A stretch of 64,000 bases of DNA from Methanoculleus formosensis (GTDB lineage: Archaea > Halobacteriota > Methanomicrobia > Methanomicrobiales > Methanoculleaceae). The notes beneath the pieces were generated by a model that was given only the letters and a program-made list of their open reading frames with translations, was not told where the DNA came from and made no database searches. The stretch covers positions 62,001 to 126,000 of the forward strand of contig NZ_VHLL01000002.1 of the NCBI RefSeq assembly GCF_025384765.1, written 5' to 3'. Positions 46,405 to 53,480 of the stretch are shown in pieces; positions within the stretch are counted from its first letter, which is position 1; each line of letters opens with the position of its first letter. The position numbers were made by a program, and so were the translations under genes.

Positions 46405-46779
46405 TCACTTCTTCTTCCTGGCCATGGAGAGGATATCCACAACATATTTACCTTCTTTTTCCAGCCCGACGACGACCTCGTCGGACCGGGCCAATTTATC
46501 GATGTTCAGTTCGTACGAACCGGGACCGAGGATACGGATACTCTCGATCCGCTCAAAGACCTCGATCTCCTCCTTTCGCCGGTCCCGCTGGACCTCAAGC
46601 ACGTTCTCTCCGGTATCCAGGGCGATCTCATCGATGCTCTTCTCCTTCAGCACATCGTCGTGCCGTTCGGCCTCACGGATGTAGAGAAACTTCTTCCCGC
46701 CGCAACTCGGACATCCTTTCAGTATCTTTGTCGAACCGTCCTCGAACTCCCTGCCGCATTGTGTGCACTTGTGAGGCAT
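46405..46779 (-). CDS. Zinc-ribbon protein (DUF2072 / COG3364-like)
   Basis: A 124-residue protein starting with a zinc ribbon: HKCTQCGREF and GCPSCGGKKF hold two C-x2-C pairs. The rest is a helical linker and a C-terminal strand-rich domain (SYELNIDKLARSDEVVVGL). It is the third gene of the conserved archaeal trio Era-like GTPase - DUF2073 - DUF2072. The function is unknown; RNA or ribosome contact is a guess based on the GTPase partner. Confidence 0.8.
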   Translation of the reverse strand: MPHKCTQCGREFEDGSTKILKGCPSCGGKKFLYIREAERHDDVLKEKSIDEIALDTGENVLEVQRDRRKEEIEVFERIESIRILGPGSYELNIDKLARSDEVVVGLEKEGKYVVDILSMARKKK

Positions 46780-46800
46780 CCCTTCACCCCCGCTGTCCGT

Positions 46801-47175
46801 TCATCTCGACGAGGAGACCCATGCACTGATGAGATCCTTCTCCTTCTTGAGTGTCTTGAGCTGGTTCGCCGGCCCGATCACGGTCAAACGGGACTCGGAG
46901 CGTTTCCCGCCAAGAAGTTTCGACAGGAAACCGCCCTGAACATCCTTGATCGGATAGGTCTCCATCTCGATCCCGGAGAACCCGTCCGGCGCGATCTCCC
47001 GCATCGTGATCTCGATGAGCTTGCTCTGCTCCTCCGGCGCAAGGCCCTTCTCCAGGATAACGATGTTTCCTTCCATAACGTCATCGAGGATCAGGCGGAT
47101 CTTCTCCATCGACGTGAGGCGATCGAGACGTTCCGCAGAGATCAGATCGATTTGTACACCCTGTATCATCTCCAT
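46801..47175 (-). CDS. DUF2073 protein
   Basis: A 124-residue soluble protein (GVQIDLISAERLDRL; GNIVILEKGLAPEEQSKLIE; a C-terminal strand-helix with RLTVIGPANQL). It is always found, as far as I know, next to the archaeal Era-like GTPase, and its start overlaps the GTPase stop (TGATG at 47173-47177). Role unknown; it may be a regulatory partner of the GTPase. Confidence 0.85.
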   Translation of the reverse strand: MEMIQGVQIDLISAERLDRLTSMEKIRLILDDVMEGNIVILEKGLAPEEQSKLIEITMREIAPDGFSGIEMETYPIKDVQGGFLSKLLGGKRSESRLTVIGPANQLKTLKKEKDLISAWVSSSR

Positions 47176-47816
47176 CACCCGAAATATGTCGTCATCTTCT
47201 CGTACAACTCATCCACGTTGTTCCCTTCAAGACCCGATATGGAGATGACCGGATGCTGGGGGAACGCACTCTTGATCCGCGCGGCGGACGCATCAGGGAG
47301 ATCGTTCTTGTTCGCGACGATCACGACCGGGAGTTTCCGGCTCTCGATGATCCCGATGAGCATGATGTTCACCTGCTGGAACGGGTCCTGCGTGGAATCG
47401 AGCATATAGATGACGCCGTCGATATCCTCGCGGAGCCAGTGCATCGCCTCGGCAACGCCTTCGGTCGCCTCCCGGGCCCGCTTGACCGCCTCCTCCTTCT
47501 CGATACCGTACTCGACGAACTCGTTGTAATCGATCTTGGTCGTCACGCCGGGGGTATCGACGATGTCGATGGTGACCGAGCCGCCGTTCTGCCCGGTGAT
47601 GGTGATATCCTCTTTACGCCGGACGCGCCGGGTTTCATGCGGCACCTCGCTGACCGGGCCGACCGCATCGCCGACCCAATCCCGCACAATCCGATTCGCA
47701 AGTGTGGTCTTACCGGCATTGGGAGGGCCGTAGATCCCGATGCGAAAGGTTCGCTTCCTAAAGAGCGCCTTCAATAGCCCCGAGATCTTTCTTTTAGTAC
47801 GAACAAAGAACGTCAT
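47175..47816 (-). CDS. Era-like GTP-binding protein
   Basis: A 213-residue P-loop GTPase. G1 YGPPNAGKTTL at about residues 29-39, switch I Thr in ETRRV, G3 DIVDTPGV, G4 ANKND and G5-like SISGLEGNN are visible. An N-terminal basic helix precedes the G domain. It lacks the KH domain of bacterial Era. It heads the operon with the DUF2073 and zinc-ribbon genes. The promoter on the minus strand is AT-rich (about 47870-47895). Confidence 0.92.
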   Translation of the reverse strand: MTFFVRTKRKISGLLKALFRKRTFRIGIYGPPNAGKTTLANRIVRDWVGDAVGPVSEVPHETRRVRRKEDITITGQNGGSVTIDIVDTPGVTTKIDYNEFVEYGIEKEEAVKRAREATEGVAEAMHWLREDIDGVIYMLDSTQDPFQQVNIMLIGIIESRKLPVVIVANKNDLPDASAARIKSAFPQHPVISISGLEGNNVDELYEKMTTYFG

Positions 47817-47954
47817 TAAGCTCCCTCAGGCAGGCAGGAATTGCCTGTACTTAAGTGAGATGTGGCACTCACAAATAAATATAATTATATGTTCCGTCCG
47901 GCTGATTCTCCCTAATTTTTGCAGACAAACAACTTTCCCGGTGCGAGAGAATTC

Positions 47955-47962
47955 TTTTATAC
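47955..47962 (+). promoter_or_regulatory. Promoter of the five-gene CBS operon
   Basis: TTTTATAC lies about 70 bases before the first CBS start at 48030, giving a leader of about 45 bases that ends in AGGAGAATACC. The leader and the divergent GTPase promoter share a 210-base AT-rich region, the most AT-rich stretch near these genes. Confidence 0.5.
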
Positions 47963-48029
47963 TGCTGAAACCTAGATAGACTTGCACCTGGAAAATTAGC
48001 CCTAATTGCGACCAGTTCAGGAGAATACC

Positions 48030-48593
48030 ATGATGAATAATAGTGATACCATCCGCTTCGAGACACGCATACCGGTCAGGGAGGTCATGCAGAGTCATCC
48101 GATAACCATCGATGTCGGTGAGACTGTCGCCCGGGCGGCGCAAGCCATGTGCCGCAACGAGGTAGGGAGTTGCATCGTCCTGCAGAACAACCTGCCCACC
48201 GGGATCGTCACGGAAGAGGATATCAACTGCAAAGTCGTGGCTAAAGATTTAAAACCGGGTGAAGTCCACGTCAGCAAGATCATGAGCACGCCTCTGATCA
48301 CGATCGGTGCCGAGAAGCTGGTCGGGGATGCCGCGGGAATGATGGTGAAGCATCGTGTCCGCAGGCTCCCGGTCGTCGAAGACCAGGTGGTCATCGGGAT
48401 CGTGACCGTTCGGGACATCCTCACCGTCGCGGCCGAAGTAAACGAACTTCTCGCGGATCTCATCGAGATCAACCGCGAAGAAGAGTACGCCATGGGCGTA
48501 TGTGACCGATGCGGGAATCTGTCCGATGACCTGTCAAGGGTCGACAACCTTATGCTCTGCCCCGTCTGTCGGGAAGAGGAGCAGTTGTTATGA
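48030..48593 (+). CDS. CBS-pair protein with C-terminal zinc ribbon (CBS operon gene 1)
   Basis: A 187-residue protein with two CBS domains (residues about 12-68 and 80-138, for example REVMQSHPITIDVGE and SKIMSTPLITIGAE) and a C-terminal zinc ribbon GVCDRCGNLS ... LCPVCREEE. A pair of CBS domains normally forms one adenosyl-nucleotide binding (Bateman) module. The zinc ribbon suggests protein or nucleic-acid contact. The ATG at 48030 follows AGGAG; the longer frame to 48006 lacks this. It overlaps gene 2 by 4 bases. Confidence 0.9.
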   Translation: MMNNSDTIRFETRIPVREVMQSHPITIDVGETVARAAQAMCRNEVGSCIVLQNNLPTGIVTEEDINCKVVAKDLKPGEVHVSKIMSTPLITIGAEKLVGDAAGMMVKHRVRRLPVVEDQVVIGIVTVRDILTVAAEVNELLADLIEINREEEYAMGVCDRCGNLSDDLSRVDNLMLCPVCREEEQLL

Positions 48594-49345
48594 AGGTGGC
48601 CTCAGACCTGATGGTGGACATCCCCACCCTGCATTACGACGATTACGTCACAAAAGCAAGGAGCGTCCTCAGAGACGACGTCTTTCGCGAGGTCTACGTC
48701 GTAGACGAGAAGGGCCGTCTGAAAGGGTATCTTGACATCTCCGACGTCCTGCGAGTCGTGGACACCAAATCGAACGTCACGATCAAGGGGTTCGTCCGGG
48801 AGGCCGCCCGGGTCGGCCCGGGGACCTCCCTTGCGGAGGCGGGCGTCGCGATCCTGAACGCCCGCACAAACAGCGCTGCAGTGGTCGACGAAGACGGCGT
48901 ATACCAGGGAGGGGTGCTCTTCTCCGAACTCTTCCCCGTCCTGATCTCGCGCCGCACCATCCCCGGCAGGGTCGAGGACGCCATGTCGCGAGAGCCCGTC
49001 ACCTCCGCGCCGGACGAGCCCATACACCGCATCTACAGCCTGATCGTCACAAGCGGATTTACTGCATTCCCGGTGGTGCAGAAGAACGAGACTATCGGCG
49101 TAGTCTCCCGCCGCGATCTCCTGCGCGCCGGGAATGTCCGCATATCGGTGAAGAACCAGGCGGACACCACCGTCGAGCGAGTGATGACGACGCCCGTCAT
49201 CTCGGTGACGCCGGACGACACGATAGCGGCGGCGAGCCGGCTGATGGTCGAGCACGATGTCAGCATGCTCCCGGTCGTCGACGAGAAGAAGCGGCTAGCC
49301 GGCGTTATCGACCGGCATGATGTCCTCAGCGGCCGCCTGCCCTGA
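48590..49345 (+). CDS. Four-CBS-domain protein (CBS operon gene 2)
   Basis: A 251-residue protein composed of four CBS units (about 5-55, 62-115, 124-178 and 190-247); the last two carry the usual EDAMSREPVTSAPDEPI and ERVMTTPVISVTPDDTI starts, the first two are more divergent. No catalytic or DNA-binding domain is attached. The ATG lies inside the end of gene 1 (ATGA), so translation is coupled. Probable ligand is AMP, ATP or SAM, as in archaeal CBS proteins; not shown here. Confidence 0.9.
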   Translation: MKVASDLMVDIPTLHYDDYVTKARSVLRDDVFREVYVVDEKGRLKGYLDISDVLRVVDTKSNVTIKGFVREAARVGPGTSLAEAGVAILNARTNSAAVVDEDGVYQGGVLFSELFPVLISRRTIPGRVEDAMSREPVTSAPDEPIHRIYSLIVTSGFTAFPVVQKNETIGVVSRRDLLRAGNVRISVKNQADTTVERVMTTPVISVTPDDTIAAASRLMVEHDVSMLPVVDEKKRLAGVIDRHDVLSGRLP

Positions 49346-49379
49346 GGAAGACTCACCACCCCAATTTCAAAGGAGTGAT

Positions 49380-50330
49380 ATGATGCAACCCAACTCGAAT
49401 AATTCGGATAAGAGACCGGCCGACCGGCTCTTGAAGATGCCGGGCAAACGCGAACGCGGGCCGGTCGACTTCAAGACGAAGATCGCCGAGCACGAAGGCG
49501 AGATCATGGCGATCGCCACAAGGGACGTCGTCGTGGCGCAACAGACGACCACGATCATCCAGGCGGTCGAGATCATGACCCGGGAAGGGTTCCGCAGGCT
49601 GCCGGTCGTCGACGCGGGGACGCGCCATCTCCGGGGGATCGTGACCGTCGGCGACATCATCAACTTCATGGGCGGCGGCGACAAGTTCAACCTCGTGCAG
49701 GTGAAGCACGCCGGGAACTTCCTCGCGGCCATCAACGAGGGGCTCCGCGAGATCATGACGCCGCACCTGGTCACGATGCCTGTAACCGGAACCATCGGCG
49801 ACGCGGTTGATATCATCGTCAACAGAAATATCGGCGGGATCCCCATCACCGACGCCGAAGGGGAGCTGAAGGGGATCGTGACCGAACGCGACGTGATGAA
49901 GGTGCTCGCCACCGAGAACTCGAGCCGCAGGGCGGAAGATATCATGAACGCTTCGGTGCGCGTCACCGCACCCGACACACCTATCGGCAAGGTCTGCCGG
50001 GAGATGGTGAAATGCCGGTTCAGACGCCTTCCGGTTGTTGCCGACGACGTCCTCTGCGGGATCGTCACCGCCACCGACGTCATGAGTTATCTCGGGAAGG
50101 GCAAGGCCTTCGAGCGGCTGACGACCGGGGACTCCGCCGAGGTGATGGGGGTGCCGGTGCGCTCGCTCCTCTCCGGGGAACTGCACACCATCACGCCTGA
50201 GCGGAACATCCACGAGATCGCCCTCGAGATGATCCGGCGGCGGGTCGGGGCGCTCCCGGTCATAGAGGACTCGCACCTTGTCGGTCTCGTAACGGAGTAC
50301 GACCTTGTGAAAGCGTTTTCTGAGGAGTGA
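49380..50330 (+). CDS. Four-CBS-domain protein with basic N-terminal extension (CBS operon gene 3)
   Basis: A 316-residue protein. The first 40 residues are polar and basic (DRLLKMPGKRERGPVDFKTK), then four CBS units follow, with recognisable starts REIMTPHLVTMPVTG and AEDIMNASVRVTAPD and the repeated GIVT-x-x-DV end. AGGAGTGAT precedes two adjacent ATGs at 49380 and 49383. The basic extension might contact nucleic acid. Thirty-four bases separate it from gene 2. Confidence 0.9.
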   Translation: MMQPNSNNSDKRPADRLLKMPGKRERGPVDFKTKIAEHEGEIMAIATRDVVVAQQTTTIIQAVEIMTREGFRRLPVVDAGTRHLRGIVTVGDIINFMGGGDKFNLVQVKHAGNFLAAINEGLREIMTPHLVTMPVTGTIGDAVDIIVNRNIGGIPITDAEGELKGIVTERDVMKVLATENSSRRAEDIMNASVRVTAPDTPIGKVCREMVKCRFRRLPVVADDVLCGIVTATDVMSYLGKGKAFERLTTGDSAEVMGVPVRSLLSGELHTITPERNIHEIALEMIRRRVGALPVIEDSHLVGLVTEYDLVKAFSEE

Positions 50331-50337
50331 TGCGAAG

Positions 50338-51177
50338 ATGCGAGCTATAGACGTGATGGCATCTCCGGTGTACGTCGTTGCACCGACCGACAACGTCGCC
50401 TATGCGCGAAACCTCATGCTCAAACACCGGGTGTCGAGGCTGCCCGTCATGGAAGGGGACGAACTCCGGGGCATCCTCACCAAGAAGGATATCGCGTACC
50501 GGCTCAGGCAGACGGAACCGATGTGGCGGCGGCGCCCGATCGACCGGATCCCGGTCAGTATCCTGATGGCGCCCGACCCGATCACGGTAGCGCCACAGAC
50601 CGGCGTCCGCGATATCGCGGCCATCATGCTGGATAAGGACATCTCCGGGGTCCCCGTCGTCGAAGAGGGCAGGGTGGCCGGCATCGTCACCAAACTGGAC
50701 GTGATGCGTTCTGCCCATATCCGCGGGCTCACCGCCAGGGTCGACGAGGTTATGGAGGATGCGGTCACGGTGAACCGGTATCACTCGCTTGACCACGTCA
50801 TCGACACGATAAAGGGAAAAAACGATAAACTTATTGTCGTTAACGACAATGGAAGCCTTGCCGGCATAATTACGGAGAGCAACCTCGCATTTTACGAGTA
50901 TCTGGACGAGCGGATGAACCTGCCCAGGAAAGATGTTACTCACCTCAGGAAGGAGGCGCCGGCGGGGCAGAAACGCTTCAGATACGTCGTTGAGGTATCG
51001 GCAGTTGCAGAAGACATCATGAGCCGCCCGGTCATCACCGTCTCCCCCGGTGCATCCCTCCAGGATGCTGTCGGGCTGATGCTGGAGCACCAGATCAACA
51101 GCCTCGTCGTCGTGGAGGACGACGATATCCGGGGCGTGCTCAAGAGAGATGATATCATCAAGGAAGTGGCAAAATGA
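50338..51177 (+). CDS. Four-CBS-domain protein (CBS operon gene 4)
   Basis: A 279-residue protein of four CBS units: MRAIDVMASPVYVVAPTD, SILMAPDPITVAPQT, VDEVMEDAVTVNRYH and EDIMSRPVITVSPGA mark their starts; RLPVMEGDELRGIL-type strands mark the ends. A 30-residue charged linker (about 195-225) splits the third and fourth. The gene is 7 bases after gene 3, and its end overlaps gene 5 by 4 bases. Confidence 0.9.
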   Translation: MRAIDVMASPVYVVAPTDNVAYARNLMLKHRVSRLPVMEGDELRGILTKKDIAYRLRQTEPMWRRRPIDRIPVSILMAPDPITVAPQTGVRDIAAIMLDKDISGVPVVEEGRVAGIVTKLDVMRSAHIRGLTARVDEVMEDAVTVNRYHSLDHVIDTIKGKNDKLIVVNDNGSLAGIITESNLAFYEYLDERMNLPRKDVTHLRKEAPAGQKRFRYVVEVSAVAEDIMSRPVITVSPGASLQDAVGLMLEHQINSLVVVEDDDIRGVLKRDDIIKEVAK

Positions 51178-51956
51178 GCGACAGATTTCAGGTACTTGTC
51201 AAAGACGTGATGGCAAAACCGATCACCATCGCGAAGTCCGCCTTTGTCAGCGAAGCGCTCGATAAGATGCTCGGTGAGGGCGTCGATCCGCTTATCGTGA
51301 CCAACAACGGCACGGTCATCGGAACGACGTCCCGCGCAGCAATCGCCGAGACGCTCGGGAGCAGGAAGACCCAGGCGCTGAAGGCCACATCCATTCATGT
51401 CGCGAACACGGTCGAGGAGAACTTCACCTCCGCGTATCCCGACCAGAGCATCGACATCCTGGTACCGTTGCTCCAGCACTACAAGCTGGTCGTGGTCTTC
51501 GATGCCGAGCACCGCCTGATCGGGCAGGTGACGGCGGGTGATCTCTTGAAGGTGCTCCGTCCGGCAGGCGGCACCCTCGAAGTTATGGAACCGGCGTACA
51601 CCATCCAGAGCGAGGAGCGCGCCGTCCACCTCCGCCGCAGGATGCTTGACGGAGAGATCAACCGCTTCATCGTGGAGGACGGGGACACCGTCCTCGGCAT
51701 CGTCACGGAGACCGATGTCGCGAAGGCGCTCCACGCGCTGAAGGATATCGTGGAGGATACCCGGCAGGAGTACCGGATCAGGAACCTGCTCGTGCGGGAC
51801 ATCATGACCACGCCCCTGATCTCGATGGACGCGAATACGGACGTCTCCGAGATCATCGACCTGATGCTCAAGAAGAACATCAGTTCCGTCCCGATCAAGC
51901 AGAACAACAGGATCGCGGGCGTCGTGACCCGGAACTCGCTCGTGCAGGCCCTGTGA
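51174..51956 (+). CDS. Four-CBS-domain protein (CBS operon gene 5)
   Basis: A 260-residue protein with four CBS units; the clearest are the first (VKDVMAKPITIAKSAF) and the last (VRDIMTTPLISMDANTDVS), with the middle two more divergent. It is the last gene of the run, and a 546-base gene-free region follows. Together the five genes encode 18 CBS domains with no attached enzyme, channel or kinase. Confidence 0.9.
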   Translation: MSDRFQVLVKDVMAKPITIAKSAFVSEALDKMLGEGVDPLIVTNNGTVIGTTSRAAIAETLGSRKTQALKATSIHVANTVEENFTSAYPDQSIDILVPLLQHYKLVVVFDAEHRLIGQVTAGDLLKVLRPAGGTLEVMEPAYTIQSEERAVHLRRRMLDGEINRFIVEDGDTVLGIVTETDVAKALHALKDIVEDTRQEYRIRNLLVRDIMTTPLISMDANTDVSEIIDLMLKKNISSVPIKQNNRIAGVVTRNSLVQAL

Positions 51957-52042: not shown

Positions 52043-52357
52043 CGTGACGTTAGCCGGCGGGAAACCGTGTCCCGGGAGCGAATTGTGATTCTGCTCTTCT
52101 TCAGGGCCTCCCCCGTACTCAGCACTTCGCTAAAATGGTTGAGGTAATCTTCAAGAGGTCAAACCATCGACCTCCCTTCGCGTTCTCCCGCGTGCTTCCG
52201 CGTGAGTAAGTTGGAGGATGTCAACAGGACCTCGCGCGAAGGGCGCGAAGCCGCGAAGTTCGGTGCCCGGGTTCTCACCCATGCAGTGGACCGTGGGGGT
52301 ATCGCCACTGGGGGAGGGGCTGACGGGGAGGGGGCACGCCCCCTCCCCTGTCTCTAT
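52043..52357. repeat. Dispersed non-coding repeat, copy 2 (expanded form)
   Basis: Block 1 (52043-52078) and block 2 (52278-52357) match the compact copy at 23245-23392. Here the blocks are 199 bases apart instead of 32, and the extra sequence contains a copy of the 28-base GCGAAG-rich repeat (52231-52258) also seen at 33015. Block 2 has the same 11-base hairpin (52325-52335 with 52338-52348), with only its 2-base loop changed. The remaining gap 51957-52502 shows no gene. Confidence 0.8.
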
Positions 52358-52502: not shown

Positions 52503-53480
52503 ATGAAACCAACGCAGCCAGTCAAACCAAACAGCGATATAACGGCCCTCCTTGAGTCTATGAGCAAGACCGGTTTTCAGGGGAGAAAACTCGGGGAGTC
52601 GCTCGGCATCTGGACCAGGATGGTCAACGATCCCGACTGCACGATATTCATGGGACTCTCGGGCGCGATGATCCCGGCAGGCATGCAGAACGTGCTCATC
52701 GAACTTGTCAAGCATCGTTACGTCGACGTCATCGTCTCGACGGGCGCAAACATCTTCCACGACACCTGCGAGCACCTCGGTGTCCGGCACTACCTCGGCC
52801 ACCACCACGCCGACGACGAAGCGCTCTTTAACGAGGGGATCGACCGAATCTACGACGTCTTTGCATATGAAGAGGAGTTTCGGAGCATCGACGCGGAGAT
52901 CGCCCGGTTCGCCGACGAGATAGCGCCGTTCCGGGGCTCATCAAGGGAGTTCATCCGCCGTCTCGGGGACTGGCTCCGGGAGAGAAAGCCCGAGGGCCGG
53001 TCGCTCATCGCCACCTGCGCCGAGTACGACGTCCCGATCTTCATCCCCGCCCTCTGCGACTCGTCCATCGGGATCGGCCTCGTGATGGCGCGCCGGAACG
53101 GGGTCGCCGTCGATGTCGACCAGATAGCCGACACCGACGAGATCACCCGTATGGTCGAGGAAGCGCAGAAGACCGGCGTCATCTACGTCGGCGGCGGCGT
53201 CCCGAAGAACTTCATCCAGCAGACCCAGGTCATCGCGTCGATCCATGACCAGAACCTCGGCGGACATGCCTACGCCATCCAGTATACCACCGACGCCCCC
53301 CACTGGGGCGGGCTATCCGGGTGCACGTTCGAGGAGGCGATCAGCTGGGGCAAGGAGGCGCCCGAATCACCCCGGGTCCAGTGCTTCTGCGACGCGACGA
53401 TCGCGCTTCCCATCGTCGCATCGGGGCTGATCGGGAGCGGAGTCGAGCGCGCCCGCCGACCTTCCCGATCACCACAATGA
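52503..53480 (+). CDS. dys: Deoxyhypusine synthase
   Basis: A 325-residue NAD-dependent enzyme that moves the aminobutyl group of spermidine to a lysine of initiation factor aIF5A. It shows FMGLSGAMIPAGMQN, DVIVSTGANIFHD, VPIFIPALCDSSIG and YVGGGVPKNFIQQ, plus the active-site segment AISWGKEA with Lys284 in the place of the catalytic lysine. The ATG at 52503 has no strong ribosome-binding site but fits the family. It is upstream of the tRNA-ribosomal protein cluster; about 100 bases separate it from tRNA-Ser. Confidence 0.95.
   Translation: MKPTQPVKPNSDITALLESMSKTGFQGRKLGESLGIWTRMVNDPDCTIFMGLSGAMIPAGMQNVLIELVKHRYVDVIVSTGANIFHDTCEHLGVRHYLGHHHADDEALFNEGIDRIYDVFAYEEEFRSIDAEIARFADEIAPFRGSSREFIRRLGDWLRERKPEGRSLIATCAEYDVPIFIPALCDSSIGIGLVMARRNGVAVDVDQIADTDEITRMVEEAQKTGVIYVGGGVPKNFIQQTQVIASIHDQNLGGHAYAIQYTTDAPHWGGLSGCTFEEAISWGKEAPESPRVQCFCDATIALPIVASGLIGSGVERARRPSRSPQ

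Follow-up and report, generated by a model that had tools for sequence, protein, structure and literature searches.

Predicted orthologues of the ribosome-bound proteins SriA to SriD in a conserved five-gene CBS-domain operon of Methanoculleus formosensis

PDB entries of 2026 contain, according to their titles, the 70S ribosome of the methanogen Methanosarcina acetivorans with SriA and SriB (9ZNF), with SriD (9ZNG) and with SriC and SriD (9ZNI); on the ribosome these proteins most likely switch off translation during stress. The entries have the same uS11 and eL18 sequences as 9O17, which is the M. acetivorans 70S structure described in PMC12605026. A gene cluster CM-5/4/1/2 is named in PMC13324472, where Dri is derived from a fusion of CM-5 and CM-1, CM-1 and CM-4 are reported in dormant M. 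acetivorans ribosomes, and CM-1 and CM-5 are described as lost in some methanogens. According to the same paper, proteins with two CBS tandems were kept in that study and single-tandem proteins were set aside, and HibA is absent from genomes that carry the cluster. Dri is a ribosome-hibernation factor that acts on both ribosomal subunits, blocking the messenger RNA (mRNA) channel and the peptidyl-transferase centre. The CBS module of HibA binds adenosine monophosphate (AMP) best, and TA0289 is a CBS-rubredoxin-like protein that was solved with Fe2+. Here we describe five consecutive CBS-domain genes (genes 1 to 5) in a 64,000-nucleotide stretch of Methanoculleus formosensis contig NZ_VHLL01000002.1, which is called the window and to which all positions in this genome refer. 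The predicted effector of this operon is the ribosome, and the operon is of a known kind that has largely been explained already. As judged from sequence, genes 2 to 5 very probably encode Sri-type ribosome-binding factors; what is still of interest is gene 1, along with how widely the gene order is conserved.

For genes 2 to 5, each top PDB match was a different chain, and the order of the genes was that of chains 4, 5, 6 and 7. Gene 2 matched 9znf_4 (1.7e-37; fold search Z 25.6), gene 3 matched 9znf_5 (1.6e-72, followed by MJ1225, 3kh5, with 2.6e-56), gene 4 matched 9zni_6 (3e-59) and gene 5 matched 9zni_7 and 9zng_7 (7e-41). Chain 7 is SriD, because it is the sole Sri chain in 9ZNG, and chain 6 is hence SriC, while chains 4 and 5 are read by us, from the chain order, as SriA and SriB. 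When chains 4, 6 and 7 were compared with the proteins of the window, genes 2, 4 and 5 were returned, and in a phylogenetic tree the SriA, SriC and SriD chains nested in the matching families with support of 1.0, 1.0 and 0.8, respectively. Both the reverse comparison and the tree covered SriA, SriC and SriD, and the orthology of SriB is one-way, from gene 3 to chain 5. Genes 2 to 5 are thus predicted to be one-to-one orthologues of SriA, SriB, SriC and SriD. The family profile of gene 2 also matched residues 19-291 of Dri (1.1e-40) and the CBS module of the HibA-type chain 9sr9_H (residues 4-261), and the family profile of gene 4 matched Dri residues 433-634 (1.9e-49). Because genes 2 and 4 match the two halves of Dri, and because of the gene order, genes 2, 3, 4 and 5 appear to correspond to CM-5, CM-4, CM-1 and CM-2, with CM-4 and CM-2 placed by gene order and the two anchored members.

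The five open reading frames (ORFs) lie on the + strand and span positions 48030-51956, with spacings between successive genes of -4, +34, +7 and -4 bases (Table 1). A first-pass annotation, made from the sequence alone, had described five same-strand genes with 4-base overlaps or gaps of 7-34 bases, encoding 2+4+4+4+4 CBS domains and no attached effector domain, with a C-terminal cysteine ribbon in gene 1 and a basic N-terminal extension in gene 3; all of this was borne out. CBS was the sole Pfam domain type in the five products, the SriA-SriD candidates carrying four each. In a whole-genome search, 17 CBS domains of the five-gene stretch scored above the Pfam cut-off; the 18th, at about residues 65-121 of gene 2, is too degenerate for Pfam and appears as a CBS-like unit in the AlphaFold2 model of this protein, which contains four CBS-like repeats (mean predicted local distance difference test score, pLDDT, 83.5). 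In the basic extension of gene 3, an RGPV(D/E)FK motif recurs in several relatives. Purine-rich stretches resembling ribosome-binding sites precede the starts, most clearly for genes 1, 2 and 3, and the intergenic region with the TATA-like element TTTTATAC is a putative common promoter of the five genes. Scans for bacterial promoters and terminators gave counts at chance level, archaeal promoters lying outside those models.

Linkage was counted only in 80 loci chosen by gene 3, of which 40 (26 genera) came from the same class and 40 from the wider phylum. Gene 3 (SriB) was present in 80 of 80 genomes of the class. In 77 of the 80 loci the cluster began with gene 1 (38 of 40 in the class, 39 of 40 in the wider phylum). 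All five genes were found in order in 24 of the 40 same-class loci, the remainder being without SriA and/or SriC, in agreement with the losses of CM-1 and CM-5 given in PMC13324472; among the wider loci, all five models were matched in 20 of 40. A further 80 named loci (L161-L240), several of them fragments of draft genomes, were found via gene 1 and show the extent of the arrangement, not the strength of linkage. The full five-gene order occurred in named genomes of Methanoculleus, Methanoregula, Methanothrix, Methanoperedens, Methanosalsum, Methanohalophilus and Methanohalarchaeum, and also in Hydrothermarchaeum (L186), Hadarchaeum (L209) and a Methanobacteriaceae archaeon (L212). Fewer genes are kept in other loci: gene 1 with SriB (Archaeoglobi, Methanothermococcus), gene 1 with SriC and SriD (Methanomethylicota, Culexarchaeum) and gene 1 with SriA and SriB (a Bathyarchaeota genome, L235). 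The order is therefore kept across Methanomicrobiales, where the first-pass annotation had proposed to look for it, and far beyond, as one conserved unit. Because the same gene order is conserved across several archaeal phyla, chance is excluded; the spread over distant archaea fits an ancient origin, with transfer as the alternative.

In Crenarchaeote SCGC AAA261-N23 (L220:385-2668), gene 1, SriA and SriC are separate and adjacent, and unfused SriA and SriC are the arrangement expected before the Dri fusion. Fusions of other members were also seen. At L136:5544-7436 (G150:C5), where the cluster is present for a second time, SriB (CM-4) and SriC (CM-1) form one ORF of 630 amino acids, a Dri-like fusion, and in the Methanocellales genome MAG-838 (L197) SriA (CM-5) and SriB (CM-4) are fused in one ORF of 577 amino acids. 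Together with Dri, these fusions between neighbouring members would fit a functional pairing.

Gene 1 differs in layout from the four other genes, consisting of a Bateman module, a linker helix and the four-cysteine ribbon. The ribbon has the form CxxC-x15-CxxC, with Cys158, Cys161 and Cys177 kept in 97 of 98 sequences and Cys180 in 98 of 98. The ribose-binding Asp residues of the Bateman module were kept in 173/173 and 172/173 sequences. The nearest fold to the AlphaFold2 model (pLDDT 85.1) was TA0289, with Z 19.3 over 138-139 residues; this alignment spans only model residues 11-151, and the ribbon lies outside it. The closest named relatives of gene 1 are from Methanoculleus (94% and 92% identity), and orthologues in other families of the phylum mostly scored above 100 bits. 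No orthologue was found in the PDB, where the top sequence match was MJ1225 with 63.5 bits, and gene 1 is therefore not modelled in the Sri entries. Gene 1 is not known to have a Sri or CM name, and a described role for it was not found, the literature on TA0289, zinc-ribbon CBS proteins and SriA/SriB giving nothing useful; zinc and an operon are not mentioned in the main text of PMC13324472. In a Methanosarcina-like genome (L140:6900-8168), gene 1 is doubled in one ORF of 422 amino acids. What we take to be a Mut7-C ribonuclease-like protein, with a four-cysteine ribbon of its own, turns up repeatedly close to gene 1 in Bathyarchaeota and related archaea (L213:4185-4694; L220:2655-3131).

From the structures of orthologues and homologues, a course of events can be proposed for Methanoculleus. 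SriA to SriD would be four-CBS modules without catalytic activity that dock on the 70S ribosome. By homology to the N-half of Dri, SriA would block the peptidyl-transferase side of the large subunit, and by homology to the C-half, SriC would block the mRNA channel of the small subunit; SriB may partner SriA and SriD may partner SriC, the paired action being suggested by 9ZNF and 9ZNI. At low energy, idle ribosomes would be silenced and protected by the Sri proteins. Most SriB sites have kept the ribose-binding Asp; in SriD it is mostly missing from CBS1 and CBS4, and in CBS3 of SriC it is mostly replaced by Asn. Adenylates bound in the intact sites may tune Sri binding or release. Both the silencing and the ligand control are what we infer for Methanoculleus. 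With its two adenylate-type sites and its predicted metal ribbon, the gene 1 product may sense the energy and metal/redox state, and could either act on the loading and unloading of the Sri proteins or bind the ribosome transiently.

The first-pass annotation had assigned the five products to one stand-alone, hetero-oligomeric nucleotide sensor controlling an enzyme, or RNA polymerase, that is encoded at another locus. In its favour, CBS modules are adenylate binders that frequently control a partner, the linkage of the genes is strict and the gene for RNA polymerase subunit D lies downstream, but orthologues of four products have been solved on ribosomes, singly or in pairs, and relatives lose members singly or in pairs, unlike an obligate five-part complex. 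We consider this sensor very improbable. Pairs on ribosomes fit better than a single hetero-oligomer, since the PDB entries show SriA with SriB, SriC with SriD, or SriD alone; the effector, left without a name or sought in an enzyme elsewhere, is now predicted to be the ribosome through SriA-SriD orthology. An RNA machine as partner, for which ribosomal proteins had been put forward, is supported. A stand-alone CBS cluster had also been thought unusual, whereas CM genes are clustered in 10% of archaeal genomes according to PMC13324472. We attach hardly any weight to two other assignments. According to the same paper, HhpR (CM-3) is a transcription regulator made of a stand-alone CBS module, and gene 3 scored 79.8 bits with the NCBI HhpR model NF053603; the cut-off of this model, 520 bits, is far above the score of all five genes, of which gene 3 was the best, and the nearest structures are ribosome-bound Sri chains, so that transcription regulators of this type are scarcely conceivable here. 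Energy sensors resembling AMPK gamma and serving an unlinked kinase are just as improbable: MJ1225, to which gene 3 is near, is titled a putative archaeal homologue of AMPK gamma, and AMPK gamma ranked high in the fold search of gene 2, but gene 3 matched AMPK gamma with about 3e-7 against 1.6e-72 for the Sri chain, and Pfam finds no kinase in the cluster.

For gene 1 the main competing explanation is that it has no part in ribosome hibernation and is conserved only as a neighbour, such as a general sensor of redox state or metals that is transcribed first. This would be compatible with the Sri assignment of genes 2 to 5; we regard it as quite possible, if somewhat short of an even chance. In many archaea gene 1 is solitary, with no Sri genes nearby in 29 of the 80 named loci, and ribosome structures hold no orthologue of it. 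Against this, gene 1 directly precedes whichever Sri genes remain in several phyla, often overlapping the next Sri gene by 4 bases, and among the sampled genomes of the phylum it was present in 72 of 73 with SriB, compared with 18 of 37 without SriB (Fisher p 3e-10, a value that ignores relatedness and is only indicative). What we infer for gene 1 beyond its fold and linkage, and prefer over the other explanations, is that its product may assist or regulate the Sri proteins in response to metal and adenylates, or else bind the ribosome transiently, for which the chances are even at best. The more specific proposal, of an ancestral metal/adenylate sensor that heads the operon as an unrecognised fifth Sri component and switches the Sri proteins on or off the ribosome, is put forward tentatively, as less likely than not. 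Several observations weigh against the proposed function of the operon or of gene 1. The identity to the solved chains is only about 29-39% for SriA, SriC and SriD, and a change of role is possible. In the HibA study no clear effect of AMP or adenosine triphosphate on HibA-ribosome binding was seen, which weakens the step of ligand control. Gene 1 also occurs alone beside unrelated genes, without Sri genes, and is thus not dedicated to Sri, and at least one Methanosarcina-like genome (L139) has the cluster without gene 1 beside it, because of which M. acetivorans may itself be without gene 1. A common partner of the lone gene 1 copies was sought by clustering their neighbours; these differ by lineage and pointed to no single function.

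Table 1. Positions in the window of the five-gene operon and of the features around it
Feature	Position	Strand	Evidence
Gene 1: 187 amino acids, two CBS domains (one Bateman module) and C-terminal four-cysteine ribbon (C158, C161, C177, C180), TA0289-like	48030..48593	+	Pfam, conservation, model
Gene 2: predicted SriA / CM-5 orthologue, four CBS domains, second degenerate	48590..49345	+	PDB match, Dri profile, model
Gene 3: predicted SriB / CM-4 orthologue, four CBS domains, basic N-terminal extension, MJ1225-like	49380..50330	+	PDB match
Gene 4: predicted SriC / CM-1 orthologue, four CBS domains, CBS3 separated from CBS4 by a basic loop	50338..51177	+	PDB match, Dri profile
Gene 5: predicted SriD / CM-2 orthologue, four CBS domains, of which CBS1 and CBS4 have lost the ribose-binding Asp	51174..51956	+	PDB match, motif table
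Intergenic region between the divergent genes for the GTPase and gene 1, with TATA-like TTTTATAC some 75 bases ahead of gene 1	47817..48029	.	Sequence
Era-like small GTPase, divergent from gene 1	47175..47816	-	Pfam
OapB family	46801..47178	-	Pfam PF09846, 4.1e-46
OapC family	46405..46779	-	Pfam PF09845, 6.3e-44
Deoxyhypusine synthase, then S13-S4-S11-RpoD-L18e	52503..53480	+	Pfam PF01916, 1.3e-101

The genes for the GTPase, OapB and OapC (46405-47816) diverge from the Sri operon. All 40 Methanomicrobiales loci had the GTPase gene divergent from gene 1, as did 11 of the 40 wider loci, and this arrangement is also seen in some distant lineages. The adjacency of OapB and OapC raises a possible tie of origin-associated proteins to ribosome hibernation. 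A strong G+C-rich hairpin of 10 pairs (52325-52348) follows the Sri operon, ahead of the deoxyhypusine synthase gene.

With these results, what looked like a sensor operon without an effector becomes a probable operon for ribosome inactivation, with a definite target. All five genes in the Sri order are shared by Halobacteriota, a Methanobacteriaceae genome, Hadarchaea and Hydrothermarchaea, and parts of the set occur in other lineages. Should gene 1 indeed govern the binding of the Sri proteins, ribosome hibernation in archaea would be coupled directly to metal or redox and energy state.

Among the described systems, SriA-SriD of M. acetivorans (9ZNF, 9ZNG, 9ZNI) share with the Methanoculleus genes one-to-one best matches, the same domain make-up and chain labels ordered as the genes are here; they come from another methanogen order, the identity is roughly 30-50%, and none of the chains in the entries corresponds to gene 1. 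The CM-5/4/1/2 cluster of PMC13324472 would comprise the same families in the same order, as assigned here via Dri and gene order, and gene 1, with one tandem and a metal ribbon, falls outside the scope of that study. Dri of Pyrobaculum calidifontis (9E6Q, 9E7F) has an N-half homologous to gene 2 and a C-half homologous to gene 4 in one fused polypeptide, whereas in Methanoculleus these are separate genes with SriB between them. HibA has a CBS module (9sr9_H) related to the gene 2 family and carries an HPF/RaiA domain fused to it, a domain that Pfam does not find in any of the five genes; a search of the genome for HibA with PF02482 gave no match, the model being equally blank in a Haloferax volcanii control that carries the HibA-type HVO_2384. 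TA0289 of Thermoplasma acidophilum (1PVM, 2QH1) combines, as gene 1 does, two CBS domains with a C-terminal metal site, which is rubredoxin-like in TA0289, at 24% identity between the two proteins.

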